Positions 3,739 through 14,487 of a DNA stretch of 64,000 bases are shown here, piece by piece. The notes below the pieces were generated by a model, which was given only the letters and a program-made list of their open reading frames with translations, was not told where the DNA came from and ran no database searches. The translations under genes and the position numbers were made by a program. This DNA comes from Alphaproteobacteria bacterium (GTDB lineage: Bacteria; Planctomycetota; Phycisphaerae; UBA1845), in contig JANQQE010000001.1 in assembly GCA_028285105.1 (NCBI GenBank), forward strand, positions 1 to 64,000, read 5' to 3'. Every line of letters starts with the position of its first letter. Within the stretch, counting starts at the first letter, position 1.

Positions 3739-5214
3739 GTGAATGTTCCTTTCATGGATGTCCTAACTCTATCCCGTTTGCAGTTTGCTGGGACGATCAT
3801 GTTCCACTATCTGTTTCCGCCTTTGACCATTGGTCTTGGGTTGGTGATGGTGGTGCTTGAGGGGATCTGGCTTAAGACTGGCGATCAGACTTGGAAGGAT
3901 GCGGCTCGATTCTGGACGCGCATCTTTGCCGTCAACTTCGGGCTTGGCGTTGCCACCGGACTGGTGATGGAGTTCGAGTTCGGGACGAATTGGGCGGCGT
4001 ACAGCCGTTTCGTGGGCGACGTGTTTGGATCGGCGTTGGCGGCGGAGGGCATTTTTGCTTTCTTTCTTGAGTCGGGTTTCCTTGCGGTTTTGGTGTTCGG
4101 TTGGGATCGCGTTGGACCGAAAATGCATTTCTTCTCCAGCCTGATGGTGTGGCTGGGCAGCATGTTCAGTGCGGTTTGGATTGTCGTTGCGAATTCGTGG
4201 CAGCAGACGCCTGCCGGTTACCGCATTGTCGAGATGGTCGTCGGCGATCACACCCGACACCGAGCCGAGATCACTGACTTCTGGGCGATGGTGTTCAACC
4301 CTTCGAGTGTGGATCGGCTGACACATACGCTGATCGGCGCGCTGATACTTGGCGGATTCCTTGTTACATCGGTGAGTTCGTATTACTTGCTCAAGAAACG
4401 CCACGAGCTATTTGCGCGGCGCTGCTTTACGATTGGGTTGATTATCGCTGCGACGTTTAGCCTGTTGGCCGCCATCACCGGGCACGACCAGGCCAAGCAA
4501 GTCGCCCGCACACAGCCAGCAAAACTCGCCGCATTTGAAGGACACTTCAAGACCGGGCCAGCCAACCTGTACCTGTTAGGTTTGCCGGATTTGACAACGG
4601 GTGAAGTGCGTTTCGGTTTGGCAATTCCGGGTATGCTCAGTTATCTCATCACAGGCGACTCGAACAGTTCAATCATCGGGTTGAATGATATCCCCGCCGA
4701 AGATCGCCCGCCCGTTTGGTTGCCGTTTCAGATGTACCACCTGATGGTCGGGCTGGGTGTGAGTTTCATCGTGCTGACGATGGGGACGTTGCCACTGCTC
4801 CGACGGGGGCGCATCTTCACCATGCGTTGGTTGCTGTGGGTGTATGTGTTTGCCGTGTTTGGTCCGATGATCGCCAACCAAGCCGGTTGGATCGCGGCTG
4901 AGGTGGGGCGTCAGCCGTGGCTGGTTTATCCGGGTGAAGTCGACGGCGTGCCCATGCGCGGACTGCGCACATCCGACGGGCTCAGCGAAGCCGTGTCGGC
5001 AGAACAGGTACTCTGGTCGATTATCATGTTTGGTTTGATCTACCTGCTACTGTTTTTTGTCTGGATTTTTGTCCTCAACAACAAAATCCAGCACGGTCCC
5101 GACGAACCCGAACCGAGTTCCGAACCCGGCGAGCGGACGTTTTTCAAGACGGCTGCTGCCATGTCCAGCCACCAACGATCGCTGACCGAAACCAGTCCGA
5201 AAGAGAAACTGTAA
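3739..5214 (+). CDS. cydA: Cytochrome bd ubiquinol oxidase subunit I
   Basis: Inner-membrane quinol oxidase subunit that carries haems b558, b595 and d and the quinol site, reducing oxygen to water with high affinity. The protein of up to 491 residues starts with [18 protein letters not shown], containing the conserved N-terminal haem-ligand histidine, and has about nine membrane segments. The Q-loop motif [12 protein letters not shown] lies near residues 382-394. [10 protein letters not shown] in the middle corresponds to the region of the haem b558 methionine ligand. The short loop before GWIAAE suggests the short Q-loop type. Start may be GTG at 3739 or ATG at 3754; neither has a strong Shine-Dalgarno. 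The stop overlaps the cydB start by one base, so the two are translationally coupled. Confidence 0.95.
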
Positions 5215-6242
5215 TGTTCTCGCACGATACGCTGTCATTGATCTGGTTCGGGCTGCTCGGGTTTCTGCTGGTGGGTTACGCGATCCTCGACGGGTTCGAC
5301 TTCGGCGTGGGCATCTTGCATCCGATTGCCAAGAGCGATCGCGATCGCCGGATTATCCTCAATTCGATCGGTCCGCTTTGGGACGGCAACGAGGTATGGC
5401 TGGTGACGTTCGGCGGGGCGCTGTTTGCCGCGTTTCCCGAGGCGTATGCAACGGTGTTCAGTGGGTTCTATGTGGCGTTCATGATGCTGCTGTTTGCGTT
5501 GATTTTTCGGGCGGTAAGCATTGAGTTTCGCTCCAAGACTGAACATCCGGCGTGGCGAACGGCATGGGACTATGGTTTTTTTGGTTCGAGTCTGCTGGCT
5601 GCGTTTCTATTCGGGGTGGCAGCCGGCAACGTGATGCGGGGGATGCCGGTTGATGAGGACATGATCATTCGCCAAAGCGTGTTCGAACAATTGACACTCT
5701 ATCCACTGATGGTGGGTGTGCTGACCGTCGCATTGTTCAGCATGCACGGGGCGATCTTTTTATACCTAAAAACCGAGGGCGATCTGCAACAGTTGGTGGA
5801 GCGCTGGATCTGGCGGACGTTTGGGTTCTTTCTGGTCGCATATATTTTTACGACAATGTATACGTTGGTCGAGTACCCCCGCGCGATCAAAAATTTTCAC
5901 GATAACAAGTGGCTGTGGTCGGTCCCGATGCTCAACGTCCTTGCCGTCGCCAACATTCCGCGGGCCATGTATTTGAAGAAGCCAGCCTACGCCTTCGTCA
6001 GTTCGTGCGCAACCATCGCCGCGTTCGCAACATTGTTCGCCACGGCAATCTTTCCGAATCTCGTTCCGTCGTCGCTCAACGACGCATGGCACATGACTGT
6101 CTACAACGCCCGTTCGAGTGAGAGTACCCTGCGACTCATGCTGCTGATCGCCTGCATTGGTATCCCATTTGTGTTGACGTATTCCGGGGTGGTTTACTGG
6201 ACGTTTCGTGGCAAGGTTTACCTCGCCCGCGAAAGCTATTGA
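5214..6242 (+). CDS. cydB: Cytochrome bd ubiquinol oxidase subunit II
   Basis: Second membrane subunit of the bd oxidase, 342 residues and about eight membrane segments. Typical CydB sequence is seen at the N-terminus (GYAILDGFDFGVGILHP, then IGPLWDGNEVWLVTFGGALF) and in 'FPNLVPSS' near residue 280. Start and stop overlap with cydA in a TAATG arrangement. Only 15 bases separate its stop from the convergent gene at 6258, so no cydX-type small subunit gene follows. Also no cydCD assembly transporter is in the window. Confidence 0.95.
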   Translation: MFSHDTLSLIWFGLLGFLLVGYAILDGFDFGVGILHPIAKSDRDRRIILNSIGPLWDGNEVWLVTFGGALFAAFPEAYATVFSGFYVAFMMLLFALIFRAVSIEFRSKTEHPAWRTAWDYGFFGSSLLAAFLFGVAAGNVMRGMPVDEDMIIRQSVFEQLTLYPLMVGVLTVALFSMHGAIFLYLKTEGDLQQLVERWIWRTFGFFLVAYIFTTMYTLVEYPRAIKNFHDNKWLWSVPMLNVLAVANIPRAMYLKKPAYAFVSSCATIAAFATLFATAIFPNLVPSSLNDAWHMTVYNARSSESTLRLMLLIACIGIPFVLTYSGVVYWTFRGKVYLARESY

Positions 6243-6257
6243 CGAACCTCTGGCTGT

Positions 6258-7763
6258 CTAACCGATGTAGCAATTCTTCAAGCGGATGTCTCGATTGGCG
6301 AACGGGCCTGTTGCGTGGTCGTGCAGGTCAACAACAAACTGCTCTTTCGAAAACATCTTTGACACTTCGCGAAAATCCTGGTTGTGCTTCTGCAATGATT
6401 CAAAAATCACGTCGCGAAGTTCAATAACGTCCGGAACGGGTACATCCTGTTGGGTTCGCTCTAGACTGATTCGAAGTTGCTTTTCAAACTCCGGCGTTTC
6501 TTTGACCTGCATGTGGAACGAATGAATCAGCCGAACCATGTCCGCGTCTTGATGAATAATGTGATCGAGGTCGGACGTATAAATGTTGGCCCCATAGAAT
6601 GAGACGGTCAGGTCGCTTCTTCCGAACAGATAAAGCAACGGAAAGCATCGTTGTTGTTGAAGGGCGGTGACGTCGTGGCCAAGCTTGGTCACCGCATCGA
6701 GCGCGTCGGCATAGCCGACCGTTCCGCCGAAGTCCCGCAAATTGTATCGAATTTTGGGGGCAATGTTCGAGAGCCTTGCGATGGTGAAAATCAATTCACC
6801 GTCTTCGTTGGTGTCAATGACGTAGTCCAAGGGATTGTATTGAAAGATCATGGGTGCATCGCTGCGCCCAAACAAGGCTTGGCATAGTTTACTGTCCTTG
6901 AAACATAGCCGCCGCAACGCAACCGTGAAGTCGGTCTCAGCCGCAATGTTGATCTCCAGATCCGATGCGCCAAACGACGAGTAAACGCTCTTGAACGATT
7001 CCAGAAAATAGTCGCGCAGACCCTCCGTCATTCCTTCGCCGCCCACAATCAGATGAACTTCCATCTCAGCGAGGTTCAATTCGGTCGAGTTCAAAAAGTC
7101 CTTGACGAATGGCGGGTACCCGGAAATCAGATAGCGGTATCGGTCGCCAAACAGTTTGAGCGTGTTTTCCAGTTTTAATTTGTCCGGTCCGATGGATTTG
7201 AGGATTAAGGAATCGGCCATCGACATGGAGACGTTCATGCCTGTTGCCCAGGGACCCAGCGCGAAACAATTCAAAAGCATGAAGTCTTCTGAGCCGTACT
7301 TGAGTTGAAACGCGATTTCCATCAGCGCTTTGACGCAGCGGCGTTCGTCCAGACCGCGAACCCAGTTATTGGGTGTACCGCTGGAACCGGACGATTCGTC
7401 GATGACAACCCCTTTTCGTGGAATGGCACCGCCGTAGCAACGGTCTTCAATGGAGCAAGCGCGGACGTAATTGTCCTTGGTGGTTTCCGGTAGGTTGGAA
7501 ACGTCGGCCCAGCTAGGGGCGGGCCAATCGTTTTTGCTTAAGAACTCTCGGTACGCGGGGCATGACTTCTTTGCTTTGATAAACACTGCGTGCGCTTTGA
7601 TCCGGCAAATTGACTGGAGCAGTGGCTGAAATCGCAGCCCACCCAGCATGCCCGAGCGCGTTCGTATGGATGGGAAGAGTCGCGCGAAAAACCTGAACGT
7701 GCTGCTGCCAGTTTCGCAGGAGAACAGGAGCAAATGATCAGTCAATGATAATTTCTGAGACAT
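6258..7763 (-). CDS. PaaK / coenzyme F390 synthetase-like adenylate-forming enzyme
   Basis: Member of the ANL adenylating superfamily, closest in layout to phenylacetate-CoA ligase and coenzyme F390 synthetase. The 501-residue protein has the ATP-binding loop SSGSSGTP, an FGASDLE segment near the middle like the adenine-binding motif, and GRSDLTVSFYGANIY near residue 375, matching the hinge region of PaaK-like proteins. The open frame begins at 7847, but ATG at 7763 with GGAG 11 bases upstream is more likely and overlaps the end of the upstream nitroreductase-like gene by 26 bases. That overlap indicates one operon and translational coupling. It should activate a carboxylate as an acyl-AMP; the acid and the acceptor are unknown. 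Confidence 0.7.
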   Translation of the reverse strand: MSQKLSLTDHLLLFSCETGSSTFRFFARLFPSIRTRSGMLGGLRFQPLLQSICRIKAHAVFIKAKKSCPAYREFLSKNDWPAPSWADVSNLPETTKDNYVRACSIEDRCYGGAIPRKGVVIDESSGSSGTPNNWVRGLDERRCVKALMEIAFQLKYGSEDFMLLNCFALGPWATGMNVSMSMADSLILKSIGPDKLKLENTLKLFGDRYRYLISGYPPFVKDFLNSTELNLAEMEVHLIVGGEGMTEGLRDYFLESFKSVYSSFGASDLEINIAAETDFTVALRRLCFKDSKLCQALFGRSDAPMIFQYNPLDYVIDTNEDGELIFTIARLSNIAPKIRYNLRDFGGTVGYADALDAVTKLGHDVTALQQQRCFPLLYLFGRSDLTVSFYGANIYTSDLDHIIHQDADMVRLIHSFHMQVKETPEFEKQLRISLERTQQDVPVPDVIELRDVIFESLQKHNQDFREVSKMFSKEQFVVDLHDHATGPFANRDIRLKNCYIG

Positions 7764-8730
7764 CGAGTCGGTAGCTCCCCGGAGGTTCTTTTGTGTATCC
7801 CATTCTGAATACAAGCCAGATATTCTCGATCCCAAGCTTTTTCTCAAGGGCGTTTCTGGCTTCGCGGTTGGTGACGAGGTTGCCGAATGGATGAATGTGG
7901 ACGTCTTCGCGAGCCATCTCCATCCAGAGTTTCAACAGATATTTGCCCGCCGCCATTGCAGATTGGCTGTCCCAGAATGACCCTGATATGACGCCAAAGT
8001 GTTGAATGTGTCCCATGCGAAACCGATACCAATGTTTGATGAACGTTGAGATGACCGGTATTCGGTACATCCAGTAGAAATTCGCATTCATCCAAAATTC
8101 AATCGGCCTGAGGTTCATGCATCGGGCGTCGAGTCCGTCGCGCCGTTCGGCAGACTCACGCGGATTCGTTCGAACCCAGTTGTGAAACTCTTTGCGGTAT
8201 GGCCCGTTGTTCATGTCGATGAACGTTGTTTCGAGGTTCAAGTTCATCATCCAGTGAATCGTTTCCGCATCGGAGACGACCGAAAGCTGTTGACCCGTGG
8301 CGCACTTAATGGTCTTGAATCTATTGAGTAAATTGTCCGCCACGGATTTCTTGACGTTGGGCAGTCGCGAAGTCTTTCGTTTTGAATACAGCTCTCTTGG
8401 GAATGGAGCATTTGCTTCATTCGCTTTCGACAAGTTAAGTTTTGCGAAGAGATTCAGTTCGTTGTCGAAGCTCGGTTCAAAGTACTCCGCGGAAAGTTCG
8501 AGACCATACGTGGCGGCAATTCCGGCCAGCGCTTCGCAAAAAATGCCCATTGCACAGATCATGAAGCATCCTGTTGTATCTTCGTCGGGCAAAGCGCGTT
8601 TGCGATCGATGAATAGTTCCGACTGCGTTTCGTCAATGATGCGCACCTTCCAAGGTTGTGCGTTGTGAGGCGACGGCGAGGTGGCGGCTGCTTCGATGAG
8701 GGTTCGCCAGGGGTTTTTGAGATGATTCAT
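7738..8730 (-). CDS. Nitroreductase-family (Acg-like) flavoprotein
   Basis: 330-residue protein with an N-terminal AAATSPSPHNAQPWKV, the FMN-phosphate contact pattern of nitroreductase-like proteins, especially the Acg-like subgroup. Two poorly matched halves follow, with SQSAMAAGKYLLKLWMEMA near residue 250 and FGNLVTNREA near 280 where the family has its second flavin-contact helix. It likely binds FMN and acts as a reductase or oxidase, or stores flavin; the substrate is unknown. It is the first gene of a two-gene unit with the adenylating enzyme, its stop lying within the start region of the next gene. A nitroreductase-like oxidase beside an adenylating enzyme suggests modification of an acyl or peptidyl substrate, which is inference only. 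Confidence 0.65.
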   Translation of the reverse strand: MNHLKNPWRTLIEAAATSPSPHNAQPWKVRIIDETQSELFIDRKRALPDEDTTGCFMICAMGIFCEALAGIAATYGLELSAEYFEPSFDNELNLFAKLNLSKANEANAPFPRELYSKRKTSRLPNVKKSVADNLLNRFKTIKCATGQQLSVVSDAETIHWMMNLNLETTFIDMNNGPYRKEFHNWVRTNPRESAERRDGLDARCMNLRPIEFWMNANFYWMYRIPVISTFIKHWYRFRMGHIQHFGVISGSFWDSQSAMAAGKYLLKLWMEMAREDVHIHPFGNLVTNREARNALEKKLGIENIWLVFRMGYTKEPPGSYRLDVSEIIID

Positions 8731-8988
8731 ACGTCAGTTCCTTGAACGCAACCGTGTGGACCAAATCGATGGGAGTGCCCGATACGCACATCTTGGGCTT
8801 AATTGGCCGTCGAATCCAGCCATTTCCCTGACAAATAGTGTCACTCATCGCTCAGATATTTGTTGCGACTTAGATGCTGGACCGTAAACTACGCCGCAAC
8901 CCGACCGGGTCAGGGTTGTTGCAGCGGGTTTGGTTCTGAAAGCCCGTGCGATACAAATCGAAATGACAAGTCAGAAAGGATTGCGCGA

Positions 8989-10413
8989 ATGAAGTCCAGG
9001 TGTTCATTGATGTACATGTTTGGTTGTGCTTTGGCGGTTTTTGCAATGACTGTTTCAACCGGTTGTACGCCGGCTGCCCCTGGTGGCGGTGGCGGAGATA
9101 GCGGTGGCGACAACGGTGGAGATAACGGCGGAAACGACGGAGGCGACAACGGCGGTAACAATGGTGGCGGCGATAACGGTGGTGGAGATAACGGCGGCGG
9201 TGGTGACAATGGCGGTGGTGACAATGGTGCCGACCCCAGCGAATTCAACTTCGTATTCACTAGCCTTTTTCCCGATTCGCTGGGTGACATCGTCGTCGGC
9301 GAAGAGATCATTGCCGTCGGAACCGGTGCGGAGAACGGCGTGCAGTACGTCAACGCTTCGGCAGGCGAAACGAATCCAAGTAATGTATCGAACGCAAATT
9401 TCGATACGTTCGAGGAAGCTGGTTTTGCGGTGACAGGCAAGTGGATCGTCGTCCGCAACTTCAACGGAAACATAACCGTGTTCGATACCGAGACAGAAAC
9501 CGGTACGATCATCGACGAAGCCGAACTCAAAAAGCCCAGCGGAATTTCAGTTCCCGGATTGCAGGAATTCTGGGCTGAAGACGGTTTTGTCGTTACCGTT
9601 GCCGAAACGCAGCAGACATTCAAGATGATCAACCTCAATGAGACCCCAGCGGTAGTATCGACTTTTGCAGATCCCGGTGTCGAGCCGGTGCAATTCCGGG
9701 AAAATGAAATCACGCTGTTGGCCCTCGACGCTGCGAACGGTCAAATGGTCGCTCAGATTACGAACTTCTTCGTCGTGTACGACATTGACAATCCCGGTGC
9801 CCAACCGCAGGTGTTCGACATGTCGGACGACGGTGGCATTTCGAATGCGTTCGCGTTTCGTCTCGATGGCGGCCACGCACTCTATCAGACCTTTGAAAAA
9901 GCCGGCAACGGAGCAGAGATATATCGATTGGCTGACTTGAGCGATGGCTCGTCGGTTCAATTGGAGCGCAACCCCGGAAACAATGAAGAGTTCGACTTTG
10001 ACGGTGGTACGTTTGGCTACTTCGTCCTCGAGCAGGATTCCGATCTGGGTGTCAATGGGACTGCTCGCGCCGTGATCGGTGAAGTTGGACAGAATGGTCC
10101 GGAGTTCACTGTGGTTCCGCCTTCGCCAAACCCATTGGGTGATGACCCTGCCGAAGGAAACCGGGGCTATGGATGCAGCGTTGCGGTCACCCCGAATGGA
10201 GAATGGGCTTTCATCGCCGGTTGTGGCGTCACCCTGGCCAACGGCGAGTACTTCCAGTTCAGTCGCAACGGCAGCGACTTTGAGTTGGTTCCCGATGAGC
10301 TCGACGAAGACTTTTTTGAGTTTGGTCTGAAAGCGACGGAAGTGGACGCCAGCAACGAATTTGTAGGATTCCTGTCGGCATCTGGCTTGGCCTACTCAGC
10401 CGTCCCGCAGTAG
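8989..10413 (+). CDS. Lipoprotein with Gly/Asn/Asp-rich linker and beta-propeller-like domain
   Basis: 474-residue secreted lipoprotein: signal peptide with lipobox VSTGC near residues 22-26, then a linker of about 50 residues made almost only of Gly, Asn and Asp, then a domain of about 400 residues. The latter has repeated short beta-strand segments (for example ITVFDTETETGTIID and FVVYDIDNPGAQP) like a WD/YVTN-type propeller, though no exact repeat signature can be assigned. The open frame reaches 8860; ATG at 8989 is chosen because AGAAAGGA lies eight bases upstream and the signal peptide starts there. It stands alone between the divergent nitroreductase unit and a strong terminator. Function unknown; an outer-surface binding role would fit. 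Confidence 0.7.
   Translation: MKSRCSLMYMFGCALAVFAMTVSTGCTPAAPGGGGGDSGGDNGGDNGGNDGGDNGGNNGGGDNGGGDNGGGGDNGGGDNGADPSEFNFVFTSLFPDSLGDIVVGEEIIAVGTGAENGVQYVNASAGETNPSNVSNANFDTFEEAGFAVTGKWIVVRNFNGNITVFDTETETGTIIDEAELKKPSGISVPGLQEFWAEDGFVVTVAETQQTFKMINLNETPAVVSTFADPGVEPVQFRENEITLLALDAANGQMVAQITNFFVVYDIDNPGAQPQVFDMSDDGGISNAFAFRLDGGHALYQTFEKAGNGAEIYRLADLSDGSSVQLERNPGNNEEFDFDGGTFGYFVLEQDSDLGVNGTARAVIGEVGQNGPEFTVVPPSPNPLGDDPAEGNRGYGCSVAVTPNGEWAFIAGCGVTLANGEYFQFSRNGSDFELVPDELDEDFFEFGLKATEVDASNEFVGFLSASGLAYSAVPQ
9083..9232 (+). repeat. Low-complexity GGY/GAY/AAY codon repeat
   Basis: About 150 bases inside the lipoprotein gene alternate Gly, Asn and Asp codons in units of 9-15 bases such as GGTGGAGATAACGGC. 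It encodes the flexible linker after the lipid anchor. The imperfect tandem units make it likely to change length by replication slippage. Confidence 0.85.
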
Positions 10414-10443: not shown

Positions 10444-10484
10444 AACCGCCGGATCGGCACATTGCGCTGGTCCGGCGGTTTTTT
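10444..10484 (+). terminator. Rho-independent terminator after the lipoprotein gene
   Basis: AACCGCCGGA at 10444-10453 pairs perfectly with TCCGGCGGTT at 10471-10480 and is followed by T residues to 10484. This is a ten-pair GC-rich stem with a T-run, ending transcription of the lipoprotein gene. Confidence 0.88.
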
Positions 10485-10572: not shown

Positions 10573-10601
10573 TTGACAAGTGTGGGTTTGTGCGGTAATT
10601 T
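10573..10601 (+). promoter_or_regulatory. Sigma70-like promoter of the GbsR-type regulator
   Basis: A consensus -35 TTGACA at 10573-10578 is followed by a 17-base spacer and a -10-like TAATTT at 10596-10601. The next gene begins at 10643. The palindrome at 10599-10616 overlaps the -10 end and the expected transcription start. Confidence 0.6.
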
Positions 10602-10616
10602 CTGTATAGACAGAAA
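10599..10616. promoter_or_regulatory. Palindromic operator, copy 1
   Basis: TTTCTGT-ATAG-ACAGAAA is a perfect palindrome with 7-bp arms and a 4-bp centre. It covers the likely transcription start of the GbsR-type gene, where bound dimer would block transcription. The same core with the same spacing recurs at 11306-11321. Confidence 0.7.
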
Positions 10617-10642: not shown

Positions 10643-11194
10643 ATGCAGGAGACGGCTGTGTTTGAGATGACACCAACGAGCGAAGGCTTCATCCTCCACT
10701 GGGGCGAAATGGGAACCAAGTGGGGCGTGAATCGAACTGTGGCTCAGATCCACGCGCTGCTGTTCTTGTCGCCCAAACCGCTCCATGCCGAGGAAATCGC
10801 CGAGACGCTGTCCGTTGCCCGTTCGAATGTCAGCAACAGTCTCCGCGAATTGCAGGGGTGGGGTATCGTTAAGATCGTGCATGTGATGGGTGATCGACGC
10901 GATCACTTTGAATCGTTGAAGGACGTTTGGGAGATGTTCCAGATCATTCTTGACGAACGCAAGAAACGCGAAACCGATCCAACGTTAATCGTCTTGCGAG
11001 AGTTGACCAGCGCATCCAACAAAAAGTCGAAGAACGATTATGCCTTGCAACGCCTCGTTGACATGCTTGAGTTCTTTGAATCGATGACGACCTGGTACGG
11101 GCAGATGCGTCGATTACCGAAGGGCGCCTTGGTCAAGTTTATGAAGATGGGGGACAAGGTCCTGAAACTGATTCCTGGCGGAGCTGCGAAATGA
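10643..11194 (+). CDS. GbsR/MarR-family transcriptional regulator
   Basis: 183-residue winged-helix regulator of the GbsR branch of MarR proteins. The N-terminal FILHWGEMGTKWGVNRTVAQ and LLFLSPKPLHAEEIAETL followed by SVARSNVSNSLRELQGWG (about residues 47-74) match the helix-turn-helix of that branch. The C-terminal half is helical and probably dimerises. Known GbsR proteins repress osmolyte genes, but no choline or betaine gene is nearby; the downstream genes concern membrane acylation and redox. Two copies of one palindrome, in its own promoter and over the next gene's start, suggest autoregulation and control of the cluster. Start may be ATG 10643 or ATG 10667; neither has a strong Shine-Dalgarno. 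Confidence 0.8.
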   Translation: MQETAVFEMTPTSEGFILHWGEMGTKWGVNRTVAQIHALLFLSPKPLHAEEIAETLSVARSNVSNSLRELQGWGIVKIVHVMGDRRDHFESLKDVWEMFQIILDERKKRETDPTLIVLRELTSASNKKSKNDYALQRLVDMLEFFESMTTWYGQMRRLPKGALVKFMKMGDKVLKLIPGGAAK

Positions 11195-11305
11195 TCGGAC
11201 GCCTTGCGTCAATGCGGGTAATCTTTGGACAGTGCACGAACAGCGAGCCAAGAGTAAACCAACAGCGCATCGAGTTTCTTGCCTCGCGTTTTTTTGGGAA
11301 CGAAT

Positions 11306-11321
11306 TTCTGTTATGACAGAA
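11306..11321. promoter_or_regulatory. Palindromic operator, copy 2, over the DCC-MBOAT start codon
   Basis: TTCTGT-TATG-ACAGAA: the four-base centre contains the ATG start (11313-11315) of the downstream gene. Core arms and spacing are identical to the site at 10600-10615. A repressor bound here could block transcription or the initiation region. Confidence 0.7.
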
Positions 11322-12587
11322 CTAACGAAACAAACAGGCCTGAATGACGGCATTGCGGAAATAAGCAACGCTACTGGCTGGGTGTTCATCGACGGCGAAT
11401 GTCCCATGTGTGTCGGGTTGGCGCGTCGGCTGGAGCGGGTGTTCGCAAGGATCGGATACAAGATCGCCCCGCAGCAGGCTACTTTGGTACAAAAGCGAAT
11501 CGGATTGAAGGAAGGTGAACCTCTGACCGAAGTTCGAATCCTCACGCCCAAAGGTCAAGTCATCGGCGGCGCTGATGCGGTCGTGTATGTCGCACGAAGT
11601 ATCTGGTGGGCATGGCCACTCTTCGCGATCTCAAGAGTTCCAGGCGCGATCCACGTCTTACGCGCCGCATACAAAAAAATCGCTGCGAAGCGATTCTGCA
11701 TCTCAGGCGTTTGTTGCGGTAGGCGCTCCGGAGCAACAGCCTGGATACCAATCTTGGTGCTGCCCCTCATCGTCTGTTTGTTGGGAAAAATCTTCGCCCC
11801 TTGGATGTTCATGTGGGGACTTGCGTTATCAATCTACTGCGGATGCAAATGGTTGACTTGGAGACACGCATCGTCATGTGGCAGATCGAACTGGACTCGG
11901 CACCTGCAATACATGTTCTGCTGGCCCGGAATGGATGCCAGCCGCTTCATCAACTCGAAAGAATCGCCCGAGACTCCAAAGCTTCGCGAATGGATGTGGG
12001 CTGCATTCAAGACTTCCGTTGGATTCGGATTGATTTGGACCTCCGCGAATGAATCAATTCTCGATCCCGTCATGGCAGGAGGCATCGTCATCGTCGGCTT
12101 GGCTCTGATGCTGCACTTCGGCATCTTTGAGTTGTTGGGTCTGCACTTCAGAAGCCGCGGAATTCAGGTGACACAAATCATGTGCCGGCCCCTTTACTCC
12201 ACGTCACTTGCAGAGTTTTGGGGGCGACGTTGGAACACAGCCTTTAGTCATCTGACTCGTGTCTACGTGTTTCGCCCACTGCGTGAACTCGCGAATGCAC
12301 GCTTTGCCATGTTAGCAGGATTCGTTGTTTCCGGTTTGGTTCACGATTTCGTGATTTCAGTACCCGCCGGCGCGGGATACGGAATGCCAACGGTGTATTT
12401 CCTTATTCAAGCAGCAGGTGTGCTTGTTCAACGGTCACGTCTCGCAAAGAGCGTGGGGATCAACTGTGGCCCACGCGGATGGGCGTTCACATTGGCTGTG
12501 GTACTCGCGCCGGTCACCCTTCTGTTCCCTCCGGCATTTGTTGTTCAGGTCATTATTCCATTCGCTGAGTCGATTGACTGGAGGTGA
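11313..12587 (+). CDS. DCC (DUF393) thioredoxin-like domain fused to MBOAT wax-synthase-like acyltransferase
   Basis: 424-residue two-part protein. Residues about 20-125 are a DCC/DUF393 domain: FIDGECPMCVGL carries the DxxCxxC signature, and the end FCISGVCC has further cysteines. From about residue 135 it is a polytopic membrane protein with MBOAT_2 (wax synthase) features: RPLYSTSLAEFWGRRWN near 290, then a helix with SGLVHDF near 345 in the place of the family's catalytic-type histidine. It would transfer an acyl group to a hydroxyl in or near the membrane, with a redox-active cysteine pair on the same chain. The start ATG lies inside a palindrome shared with the regulator promoter. The open frame extends to a GTG at 11232, but that extension looks non-family. 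Followed after five bases by a small membrane protein. Confidence 0.75.
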   Translation: MTELTKQTGLNDGIAEISNATGWVFIDGECPMCVGLARRLERVFARIGYKIAPQQATLVQKRIGLKEGEPLTEVRILTPKGQVIGGADAVVYVARSIWWAWPLFAISRVPGAIHVLRAAYKKIAAKRFCISGVCCGRRSGATAWIPILVLPLIVCLLGKIFAPWMFMWGLALSIYCGCKWLTWRHASSCGRSNWTRHLQYMFCWPGMDASRFINSKESPETPKLREWMWAAFKTSVGFGLIWTSANESILDPVMAGGIVIVGLALMLHFGIFELLGLHFRSRGIQVTQIMCRPLYSTSLAEFWGRRWNTAFSHLTRVYVFRPLRELANARFAMLAGFVVSGLVHDFVISVPAGAGYGMPTVYFLIQAAGVLVQRSRLAKSVGINCGPRGWAFTLAVVLAPVTLLFPPAFVVQVIIPFAESIDWR

Positions 12588-12592
12588 TTATC

Positions 12593-13009
12593 ATGATCGA
12601 TGGCAAAGACCTTATTTGGTTGGGCGGATTGATTCATTTCTCGATTCTCTCCGCAAGTTGCCTTGTTCCGTTCGTTCTCGATTGGAAGAAGGAATTGAAT
12701 CCGCTATCGCCATTTCTGCGCAAGTTGTTCTGGGTCTATGGCGTGTTCATCATTCTGATCATCGTGGGTTTCGGAACGCTATCGGTTCGCAACGCCGAAT
12801 ACCTGGCGAACAATGATGGTTTCGCAACGGCGTTCTGTACTTTCGTTGCTGCCTTCTGGACATTGCGATTGTTTGTCCAATGTTTCGTATTCGACACTCG
12901 CCAACTGCAACTCGCGCTTTGGGTTCGACTCGGATATCACTCATTGACGGTAGCGTTCGTCGCGATGGTCGCAATTTACGGCGGTACCGCGCTTGGTCTG
13001 TATCGCTGA
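12593..13009 (+). CDS. Small four-helix membrane protein
   Basis: 138 residues with four hydrophobic segments (near residues 8-25, 42-62, 72-95 and 105-130). No known family could be recognised. ATG at 12593 is chosen because GGAGGTGA at 12580-12587 lies five bases upstream, overlapping the stop of the DCC-MBOAT gene. Tight spacing places it in the same operon. It could be a partner subunit or accessory protein of the acyltransferase. Confidence 0.65.
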   Translation: MIDGKDLIWLGGLIHFSILSASCLVPFVLDWKKELNPLSPFLRKLFWVYGVFIILIIVGFGTLSVRNAEYLANNDGFATAFCTFVAAFWTLRLFVQCFVFDTRQLQLALWVRLGYHSLTVAFVAMVAIYGGTALGLYR

Positions 13010-13042
13010 CTTCAAAATGGATTCTTTTCGGGGAGGTGCATC

Positions 13043-13519
13043 ATGTATCCATCGGTAACGTACGGTGTCTATCTAGTCATCAGCGTGGCCATTACGGTTT
13101 GGGTTGCGCGCACCCTCTTTCGCAACGGGCGTGTTTTTCTTGTCGATGCGTTCGGGGGTAAATTAGAATTGGCCGATTCGGTCAACCATTTGTTGGTCGT
13201 CGGATTTTATCTGCTCAACATCGGCTATGTAACCACAGTCTTGCGGTACGGCACCAAGCCGAACAATCTCGTTGAAGCGATCGAGTACGCCAGCACAAAA
13301 ATCGGATTGGTATTGCTTGTGCTGGGCGCGATGCATTTCTTGAATTTGTTCGTTTTTTCAAAGGCTCGCGAGCGCGGATTGAGCGGCGAGAAGCGCAAGA
13401 AGAAGCGAGACGAGGTCTGGGAATATGCGATTCCCCCGCACCTCAGTCGAATAGAGACCAAGGTAAACGTTGATGAATCGAACAGCGACAACGATGGCAA
13501 TGAAGAATCGAAAGCATAG
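13043..13519 (+). CDS. Small membrane protein with charged C-terminal tail
   Basis: 158 residues: three or four membrane segments in the first 110 residues, then a cytosolic tail with basic (GEKRKKKRDE) and acidic (DESNSDNDGNEES) stretches. GGGGAGGTG lies just before ATG 13043, a strong Shine-Dalgarno. I do not recognise the family. It follows its neighbour by 33 bases and precedes the epimerase by five, so it is part of the cluster. Confidence 0.65.
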   Translation: MYPSVTYGVYLVISVAITVWVARTLFRNGRVFLVDAFGGKLELADSVNHLLVVGFYLLNIGYVTTVLRYGTKPNNLVEAIEYASTKIGLVLLVLGAMHFLNLFVFSKARERGLSGEKRKKKRDEVWEYAIPPHLSRIETKVNVDESNSDNDGNEESKA

Positions 13520-13524
13520 CTGGA

Positions 13525-14487
13525 ATGAAAATCGTGATTCCTGGAGGCACCGGGCAAGTAGGATCAGTATTGGCGAAGTCGTTTGTGGCGGATGGTCACG
13601 ACGTTGTAATTCTCTCTCGCGATCCAAATCGCTCGCACTATACCAAAGGTAGGCTTGTTGGTTGGGATGCGAATACGCTCGGACCGTGGGTTGACGAAAT
13701 CGAAGGTGCAGATGTCGTTATCAATCTTGCCGGCTACACGGTCAACTGTCGCTACAATCGTAAGAATCGAGAACGCATCATGGACTCGCGCGTGAATTCG
13801 ACGAGAGTCATCGGCGAAGCGATTGGAAATGTAGCACGTCCACCCGCCGTTTGGTTGCAGGCGAGTACGGCTACAATCTATACGCATACGTATGGCACTC
13901 CAAACGACGAATACTCAGGTGTGATCGGCGGAAACGAAGCCGCCGCAACCGATACCTGGAGATTCAGCATTGACGTCGCAACAGCTTGGGAACGGGCAGC
14001 CGACGATGCCGTTGTCCCCCATACTCGGAAAGTCAAACTGCGGTCGGCGATGGTGATGAGTCCCGACCGCGGGGGCATCTTTGACACGCTGCTGGGTCTC
14101 GTTCGGCGCGGACTTGGTGGGCGATCTGGAAACGGTCGCCAGTTTGTCTCGTGGATACATCACCAGGATTTTGTCCGCGCGATTTATTGGCTTATCGATC
14201 AACACGAAATTGATGGCGTTGTGAATATTGCGTCGCCCAATCCCCTGCCGAACGCGGAATTCATGCGAGCCATTCGCAAGTCATGGGGCACTCGAATTGG
14301 GCTACCTGCAACCGAGTGGATGTTGGAAATCGGTGCGATCTTTATGCGCACCGAAACTGAGTTGATTCTTAAGAGTCGGCGAGTTGTTCCAAGGGTGCTG
14401 GTCGACCACGGATTCGAGTTCGTGTATCCTCAGTGGTCCGAGGCAGTATTCGATCTCGTTCGCGAGTTTCGCAGGATTCACCAATGA
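13525..14487 (+). CDS. TIGR01777-type (SDR39U1-like) NAD(P)-dependent epimerase family protein
   Basis: 320-residue protein of the extended short-chain dehydrogenase class. The nucleotide-binding loop GGTGQVGSVLAKSF lies near residues 7-20, with WDANTLGPW and VVINLAGYTVNCRY that mark the TIGR01777 group (YfcH-like). VWLQASTATIY gives the central motif, and the C-terminal NPLPNAEFMRAI with RVVPRVLVDHGFEF is also typical. The reaction of this group is not established. It is the last gene of the cluster, five bases after the membrane protein gene. Confidence 0.85.
   Translation: MKIVIPGGTGQVGSVLAKSFVADGHDVVILSRDPNRSHYTKGRLVGWDANTLGPWVDEIEGADVVINLAGYTVNCRYNRKNRERIMDSRVNSTRVIGEAIGNVARPPAVWLQASTATIYTHTYGTPNDEYSGVIGGNEAAATDTWRFSIDVATAWERAADDAVVPHTRKVKLRSAMVMSPDRGGIFDTLLGLVRRGLGGRSGNGRQFVSWIHHQDFVRAIYWLIDQHEIDGVVNIASPNPLPNAEFMRAIRKSWGTRIGLPATEWMLEIGAIFMRTETELILKSRRVVPRVLVDHGFEFVYPQWSEAVFDLVREFRRIHQ

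Follow-up and report, generated by a model that had tools for sequence, protein, structure and literature searches.

A conserved GbsR-headed operon of Planctomycetota and Verrucomicrobiota, with a DCC-MBOAT fusion and a probable part in membrane lipid acylation

Membrane-bound O-acyltransferases (MBOATs) of the DGAT1/wax type are, to our knowledge, little studied in bacteria, and Dlt-type surface acylation typically pairs MBOATs with small membrane partners. DCC domains, for their part, occur joined to multi-pass membrane domains, as in HTTM-DCC proteins and the DCC-lipase maturation factor. Regulators of the GbsR type were surveyed in 2018, when osmoprotectant genes and cytochrome bd emerged as their main functional contexts and the choline-binding aromatic cage was reported absent outside the osmostress subgroup (PMC6207618). 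We have analysed a window of 64,000 nucleotides from a planctomycete contig (JANQQE010000001.1, assembly GCA_028285105.1), in which representatives of these families stand together in five genes. On balance we favour reading the five as one autoregulated unit, in which GbsR would repress both itself and a membrane lipid-acylation unit. No description of such a unit was found in the literature searched, which took in few subscription papers and covered DCC/DUF2071/TIGR01777/YndJ, MBOAT with thiol-disulfide oxidoreductase, and planctomycete wax-ester acyltransferases.

Layout and conservation of the five-gene cluster

The earlier note had proposed, from the letters of the window, five open reading frames at 10643-14487 with gaps of 5, 33 and 5 bases, and all of this was borne out, the gaps lying at 12588-12592, 13010-13042 and 13520-13524. 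DCC and MBOAT do share one chain, with DGECPMC near its N-terminus (Pfam DCC1-like and MBOAT_2). For the fusion gene the ATG at 11313 is the preferred start, a GTG further upstream at 11232 being less likely, and the true start of gbsR is probably the GTG at 10658, which is preceded by a ribosome-site-like AGGAG and is where the homologues begin.

Table 1. Features of the cluster and its borders in the window
Feature	Position	Strand	Evidence
Intrinsic terminator of the preceding lipoprotein gene, 5' border of the unit	10444..10480	+	15-pair GC-rich stem, then T run
gbsR promoter, predicted (TTGACA, 17 nt, TAATTT); -10 overlaps operator 1	10573..10601	+	sequence
Operator 1, predicted, TTTCTGTATAGACAGAAA, palindrome with perfect 7-base arms	10599..10616	.	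conserved before gbsR in other loci
gbsR, GbsR/MarR-type regulator	10643..11194	+	MarR_2 E 1.6e-8; identity to relatives' regulators
Operator 2, predicted, TTTCTGTTATGACAGAAC, contains ATG of fusion gene	11305..11322	.	palindrome search
DCC-MBOAT fusion, 424 aa	11313..12587	+	Pfam, alignments, AlphaFold, DGAT1 fold match
mem1, four-TM protein	12593..13009	+	adjoins MBOAT in 38/39 loci; AlphaFold
mem2, three-TM protein, core about 110 aa	13043..13519	+	relatives' identity; DCC nearby in 30/42 mem2 places
TIGR01777-family SDR oxidoreductase	13525..14487	+	E 7e-68, 229 bits

Two genomes of the same genus repeat the gene order with 56-88% identity, and the gene set recurs, rearranged, in another phylum, which argues that the cluster is not a product of chance. 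It is a conserved, modular operon of Planctomycetota, the phylum of the window, and Verrucomicrobiota. In the neighbourhood comparison, for which the genes of relatives were called by tblastn and HMM, order was kept across the two phyla with variations that preserve two pairs, MBOAT with mem1 (38 of 39 MBOAT loci, one locus lacking mem1) and, less strictly, DCC with mem2 (30 of 42 mem2 places, about a quarter of places being without DCC). Most Verrucomicrobial clusters hold MBOAT-mem1 and neither DCC nor mem2. The fusion itself is the minority form, found in 12 of the 39 MBOAT loci, the MBOAT standing alone in the others, and its occurrences are scattered over five separate positions of the MBOAT tree.

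Around these pairs the content varies, with desaturase, DUF2071, YndJ, DoxX_3 and radical SAM genes beside the clusters. The first structural slot is taken by a fatty-acid desaturase at locus L075 (one is also present in L001 and L002) and by a B12 radical-SAM protein at L078, which suggests lipid work. The TIGR01777 gene lies near only 11 of the 39 MBOATs and is thus accessory; its product scores 229 bits against a family cut-off of 207 for TIGR01777 (YfcH; NCBIfam) and 158 bits against the equivalog cut-off of 400 for ThyD. Such strongly varying content, together with the occurrence of the pairs apart from one another, could be taken to mean that a common operator merely gathers genes of separate pathways into a stress island with no single system. 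We think this very unlikely, since the pairs are close to constant, most loci have an operator ahead of the first structural gene, and the fusion has recurred in five changes on the tree, all of which argues for a functional linkage.

The predicted operator and the GbsR-type regulator

An 18-bp palindrome, TTTCWGT-N4-ACWGAAA, marks the gbsR promoter in 30 of the 31 loci with usable upstream sequence; counted over all 32 loci, a match of at least 12/14 lies before gbsR in 30, compared with 0.08% of background windows. Of these 30 loci, 20 have a second copy after gbsR, close to the first structural gene (background 0.57%). In 17 of the 30 the operator is preceded, at 25-28 nt, by TTGAC, a motif that turns up at any position in 2.4% of 40-nt background windows. 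The gbsR promoter of the window is not listed by a generic promoter scan. With up to one mismatch allowed, the 4.8-Mb genome of the window holds two palindrome sites only, both in this operon. Furthermore, this palindrome lies within TATTTCAGAAATTTCTGAAAGTTCA, the footprint published for CydE, a GbsR-type regulator that represses its own operon. On this comparison of sequences the evidence for the predicted operator, dedicated to the unit and kept in both phyla, is strong, and GbsR may bind the palindromes at its own operon.

The gbsR product matches MarR_2 at 35 bits against a cut-off of 27 (Pfam), and the GbsR-type model CudC at E 2e-10, below the equivalog cut-off (NCBIfam). It is 49-88% identical to its counterparts in clusters of this kind in relatives, bar one. 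Near 17 of the 39 MBOATs gbsR was not found, so the core enzyme does not depend on this regulator. As the annotated genes around it, in the window and the relatives alike, include neither glycine betaine synthesis nor Opu transport genes, we do not place the regulator in the osmostress GbsR subgroup, and osmotic stress as the signal is a lead taken from the name GbsR. Control of cytochrome bd, as in the CydE/CioR subgroup, was likewise rejected; the cydB gene (5214-6242) is not adjacent, lying 4.4 kb upstream past two opposite-strand genes and the lipoprotein gene, and the window search found no operator near it.

The acyltransferase and its membrane partners

The MBOAT half spans residues of about 141-422 of the fusion (MBOAT_2 E 2e-10, Pfam), with N308 and H344 as the catalytic Asn and His, which are kept in all 38 aligned MBOAT rows. 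In a fold comparison of the AlphaFold model of the fusion (pLDDT 90.7) the best 26 VIA rows are all MBOATs, with human DGAT1 matching at Z 18.8 and rmsd 3.9 over 261 residues, and a PDB profile search with the MBOAT gave DGAT1 as its sole match (E 1.4e-5), the catalytic Asn/His being aligned. To judge by the modelled fold and these invariant residues, the fusion carries in its MBOAT half an enzyme that is intact and DGAT1/wax-synthase-like. The earlier note had seen in the cluster a regulated membrane acylation system acting on a lipid or cell-surface group; the order kept in two phyla, the catalytic residues and the predicted operator uphold a regulated unit with a membrane acyltransferase at its core, which may act on such a target, but the fusion is not the norm. 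Of the two halves of one of its grounds for refutation, a fusion split in most genomes holds and an MBOAT half without catalytic residues does not.

The probable task of the unit is to acylate a membrane lipid with fatty acids, and the modelled fold favours a hydrophobic lipid alcohol, of the DGAT1/ACAT class, over a surface polymer as the acyl acceptor. It is quite unlikely that the MBOAT instead passes acyl groups across the membrane to an outside polymer or protein, as DltB and AlgI do, with mem1 and mem2 as hand-over subunits. Small membrane partners are indeed typical of the Dlt systems, and DltB also turns up in the fold comparison (Z 15.2); however, DGAT1 (Z 16.9-18.8) and ACAT (about 16) outrank it, by a modest gap, the sequence profile matches DGAT1 only, and no carrier protein, SGNH-type second transferase or glycan gene was recognised in the cluster or among the annotated neighbours.

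The partner mem1 is modelled with four TM helices (pLDDT 93.8), has no family in Pfam or NCBIfam, and in fold searches met generic four-helix bundles only (Foldseek best E 1.4). Neither database holds a family for mem2, which is mostly 53-74% identical across the phylum of the window. The two are not supported as relatives of one another (hhalign probability 3.6%), and a weak match of mem2 to a solved rhodopsin structure (E 9e-4) was taken as an artefact of membrane composition. A plasmid search gave one match for mem2, on a Streptomyces plasmid, and none for the MBOAT half.

The DCC (DUF393) domain covers residues of about 20-135 with C30xxC33 (DCC1-like E 1e-9, Pfam). Counted from the sequences, 36 of 38 DCC domains carry DxxCxxC, one partner lacking both cysteines and another its first, and all 12 fused domains keep CxxC. 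The DCC part of the fusion may have a thiol-disulfide role. Some of the evidence would suit a unit against redox or respiratory-poison stress, in which the signal for GbsR is an oxidant, sulfide or sulfate, as has been reported for CydE, a DCC-mem2 core repairs or reduces a membrane component, and MBOAT-mem1 is an add-on. DCC-mem2 is widespread without MBOAT, also in Streptomyces, and two close GbsR relatives in the family of the window control DCC and TIGR01777 genes where MBOAT is lacking and, in one case, mem2 is present. Furthermore, CydE responds to sulfate (PMC6096048), and ThyD, a TIGR01777 relative, acts in high-light acclimation (PMC12288457). We nevertheless consider such a stress unit unlikely, as the cytochrome bd gene of the window is without the operator and the majority of Verrucomicrobial clusters keep MBOAT-mem1 without DCC or mem2.

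Proposed model and comparison with known systems

We propose the following model for a lipid-acylation unit under GbsR control. As a repressor, GbsR would bind two palindromes, one at its own promoter and one at the start of the DCC-MBOAT gene, until repression is relieved by an inducer. Together with mem1, its partner subunit, the MBOAT half would then acylate a hydrophobic membrane lipid, such as a fatty or isoprenoid alcohol, at its hydroxyl, with acyl-CoA as the donor. The DCC domain, which is joined to the first MBOAT helix and would be tied functionally to mem2, would perform or sense a thiol-disulfide step at the membrane, and the TIGR01777 dehydrogenase may reduce or epimerise the substrate or a precursor. 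A more speculative form of the model, which we regard as doubtful, has MBOAT-mem1 and DCC-mem2 joined in a single membrane complex that acts as a redox-gated lipid acyltransferase, in which DCC switches or protects the acyltransferase, the GbsR operator provides a membrane or redox response, and the acylated lipid is made in Planctomycetota and Verrucomicrobiota.

If true, the model would extend the range of GbsR regulons beyond osmoprotection and cytochrome bd, under an operator kept across phyla. Two membrane protein families without a name would each gain a partner, constant in one case (an acyltransferase) and usual in the other (a thioredoxin-like domain). As the operon is dedicated and its switch can be read, the product and inducer of a bacterial DGAT1/wax-type MBOAT would also be open to direct tests.

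Compared with the GbsR-type MarR repressors GbsR, OpuAR, CydE and CioR, the regulator belongs to the same MarR_2 family and its gene heads its own operon, but it is tied to neither osmoprotectant genes nor cytochrome bd, and has only its two predicted operator sites genome-wide; the half-sites of this predicted operator are those of the footprinted CydE palindrome. The MBOAT has the fold, the FWxxxWN and SGxxHD/E motifs and the catalytic Asn/His of DGAT1, ACAT (SOAT) and plant-type wax synthases, whereas its core is shorter, sometimes DCC-fused, and encoded in a bacterial operon nearly always beside mem1. Operons of the DltB/DltX or AlgI type likewise unite an MBOAT with small membrane partners, although here no carrier or second transferase is seen and the fold is nearer DGAT1. 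The uncharacterised DUF2071/YndJ/DoxX_3/TIGR01777 neighbourhoods supply the same accessory families, to which MBOAT-mem1 and the GbsR operator are added here as defining features. Finally, HTTM-DCC and the DCC-lipase maturation factor also place a thioredoxin-like DCC domain and a membrane protein on one chain, while in the present fusion the partner is an MBOAT acyltransferase.

Gene set, conserved pairs and spread

The five genes match open reading frames at the positions and with the gaps that the earlier note had claimed, and its placing of DCC and MBOAT on one chain holds, with Pfam matches to DCC1-like (E 1e-9) and MBOAT_2 (E 2e-10) in the same protein. The regulator belongs to MarR_2 and resembles GbsR-type proteins, and the TIGR01777 gene product scores above the family cut-off. 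Pfam and NCBIfam searches placed the small membrane proteins mem1 and mem2 in no family, whether the query was the single protein or a set of its relatives (31 and 18, respectively), the sole exceptions being isolated weak single-member matches.

Four other genomes of the genus were searched and two have the identical order, with identities to the window of 56% for the fusion and 88% for gbsR; other family members carry GbsR, DCC, mem2 and TIGR01777 plus an SDR without MBOAT, or a rearranged unit. In the window's phylum mem2 was found in 33 of 294 genomes and MBOAT relatives, some of them weak matches, in 57 of 392; in Verrucomicrobiota the fusion query matched in 21 of 289, about a dozen of which match its MBOAT half strongly. 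Expansion of SBP_bac_10 (DUF1559) genes is a planctomycete hallmark; three complete genomes of the same phylum hold 78-137, 14 control genomes 0, and the window's genome one. The window's phylum is on this basis probably Planctomycetota.

Two pairs recur, mem1 with MBOAT in 38 of 39 MBOAT loci and DCC with mem2 in 30 of 42 mem2 places (HMM-based table), and on a Streptomyces plasmid mem2 is directly followed by a DCC gene. As mem1 is also present in 30 of 31 loci retrieved by searching with the fusion or with MBOAT (tblastn table), the MBOAT pairing is not due to mem1-based locus choice. The genes form one operon-like unit with conserved pairs, a dedicated predicted operator pair and an enzyme of acyltransferase fold and residues, and a loose island is highly improbable. 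Fusion is the minority state (12/39 MBOAT loci) and needs five changes on the MBOAT tree, whose poorly resolved backbone makes it uncertain how often fusion occurred. The order DCC-[MBOAT-mem1]-mem2, standing beside relatives with DCC-mem2, suggests, we infer, insertion of an MBOAT-mem1 cassette into a DCC-mem2 operon; that the whole is a redox-stress unit with MBOAT as an add-on is unlikely.

The window's own genome has a second DCC gene, which has DUF2071 as its partner and lacks mem2, MBOAT and operator. In a set of loci (L080, L088-L093) a TetR gene after mem2, with or without DCC, takes the place of GbsR before it, suggesting a regulator swap. One of these, L092, has a tandem row of three EutN/CcmL-like genes, of which Pfam confirms the first, adjoining a probable class II aldolase gene near its mem2-TetR-TIGR01777 cluster, and looks like a microcompartment locus.

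The predicted operator pair

Coordinates of the operators and of neighbouring or compared features
Feature	Position	Detail
Operator 1	10599-10616	TTTCTGTATAGACAGAAA
Operator 2	11305-11322	TTTCTGTTATGACAGAAC
cydB (cytochrome bd subunit II)	5214-6242	E 3e-102; 4.4 kb upstream of gbsR
Two overlapping genes	6258-8730 (-)	unexplained pair
Lipoprotein-like gene	8962-10413	GGDNGGG repeat
B12-binding radical-SAM gene	L078 6227-7780	compared locus
Second DCC gene	L034 5590-6719	window's genome, contig C35 near 175616-175969
EutN/CcmL-like genes	L092 3713-4684	compared locus

Within the window, with up to two mismatches allowed, the pattern matches at operators 1 and 2 alone (none of 100 shuffles yields two matches); with up to one allowed, they are also its sole sites in the 4.8-Mb genome, against seven per strand for a backwards control. 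A predicted operator of at least 12/14 lies shortly before gbsR in 30 of 32 loci, or in 30 of the 31 whose upstream sequence could be used (background 0.08% of windows elsewhere, 0.2% in shuffles). A TTGAC element 25-28 nt before it in 17/30 loci fits a putative promoter with its -10 overlapping the operator. In 20/30 loci another site lies after gbsR (background 0.57%), mostly where the first structural gene begins, whether DCC-MBOAT, MBOAT, desaturase, mem2 or B12 radical-SAM; the palindrome encloses the ATG in the window, L027 and L028. Two further loci, L130 and L131, have a CCGAAA half-site in both sites, as expected if sites change together with the regulator. The radical-SAM gene of L078 fills the first structural slot under a predicted GbsR operator and is followed by mem2, DCC and DUF2071.

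GbsR-type regulators elsewhere control cydAB; no operator lies near the window's cydB. One of the overlapping genes resembles Acg/Rv3131-like FMN oxidoreductases, below cut-off, the other being a distant adenylate-ligase-like protein. The lipoprotein-like gene is syntenic beside gbsR in one other genus genome (85% identity).

The acyltransferase and its partners

N308 (FWGRRWN) and H344 (SGLVHD) are invariant in all 38 aligned rows, the window sequence being included twice, and align with the WN and H of DGAT1, the sole match of the fusion profile among solved structures. The 26 best structural matches of the AlphaFold model (pLDDT 90.7) are all MBOATs, with Z of 16.9-18.8 for DGAT1, mostly about 16 for ACAT and about 15 for DltB; MBOAT7, HHAT, PORCN and LPCAT3 lie below DltB. 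This order speaks for an acyltransferase of the neutral-lipid rather than the surface-polymer type, although fold does not fix substrate. A lipid target is also supported by the lipid enzymes that occupy the operator-controlled slot, and surface acylation by the unit appears quite improbable. The mem1 model (pLDDT 93.8) has four TM helices and found no specific relative in structural searches. CxxC is present in 12/12 fused DCC domains and 36/38 overall (37 if one shifted motif is counted).

Proposed model and known GbsR systems

We propose that GbsR acts as a repressor, relieved by an effector. MBOAT with mem1 would perform acyl-CoA-dependent acylation of a hydrophobic alcohol, DCC with mem2 may contribute a thiol-disulfide step, and TIGR01777, elsewhere also desaturase, SDR, DUF2071, YndJ or DoxX_3, could supply or trim substrate. 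The module is genuine, well-conserved and regulated, built mostly from known families, to which two membrane protein families without a name and a clear predicted operator are added; our literature search found no description of it. For CydE, a repressor of the GbsR type, a published footprint, TATTTCAGAAATTTCTGAAAGTTCA, contains the same palindrome as the unit's operator (PMC6096048). A published survey of GbsR contexts names osmoprotection and cytochrome bd, besides a few transporters and a large number of unassigned cases (PMC6207618), so the GbsR-MBOAT unit looks like a further class of GbsR context.
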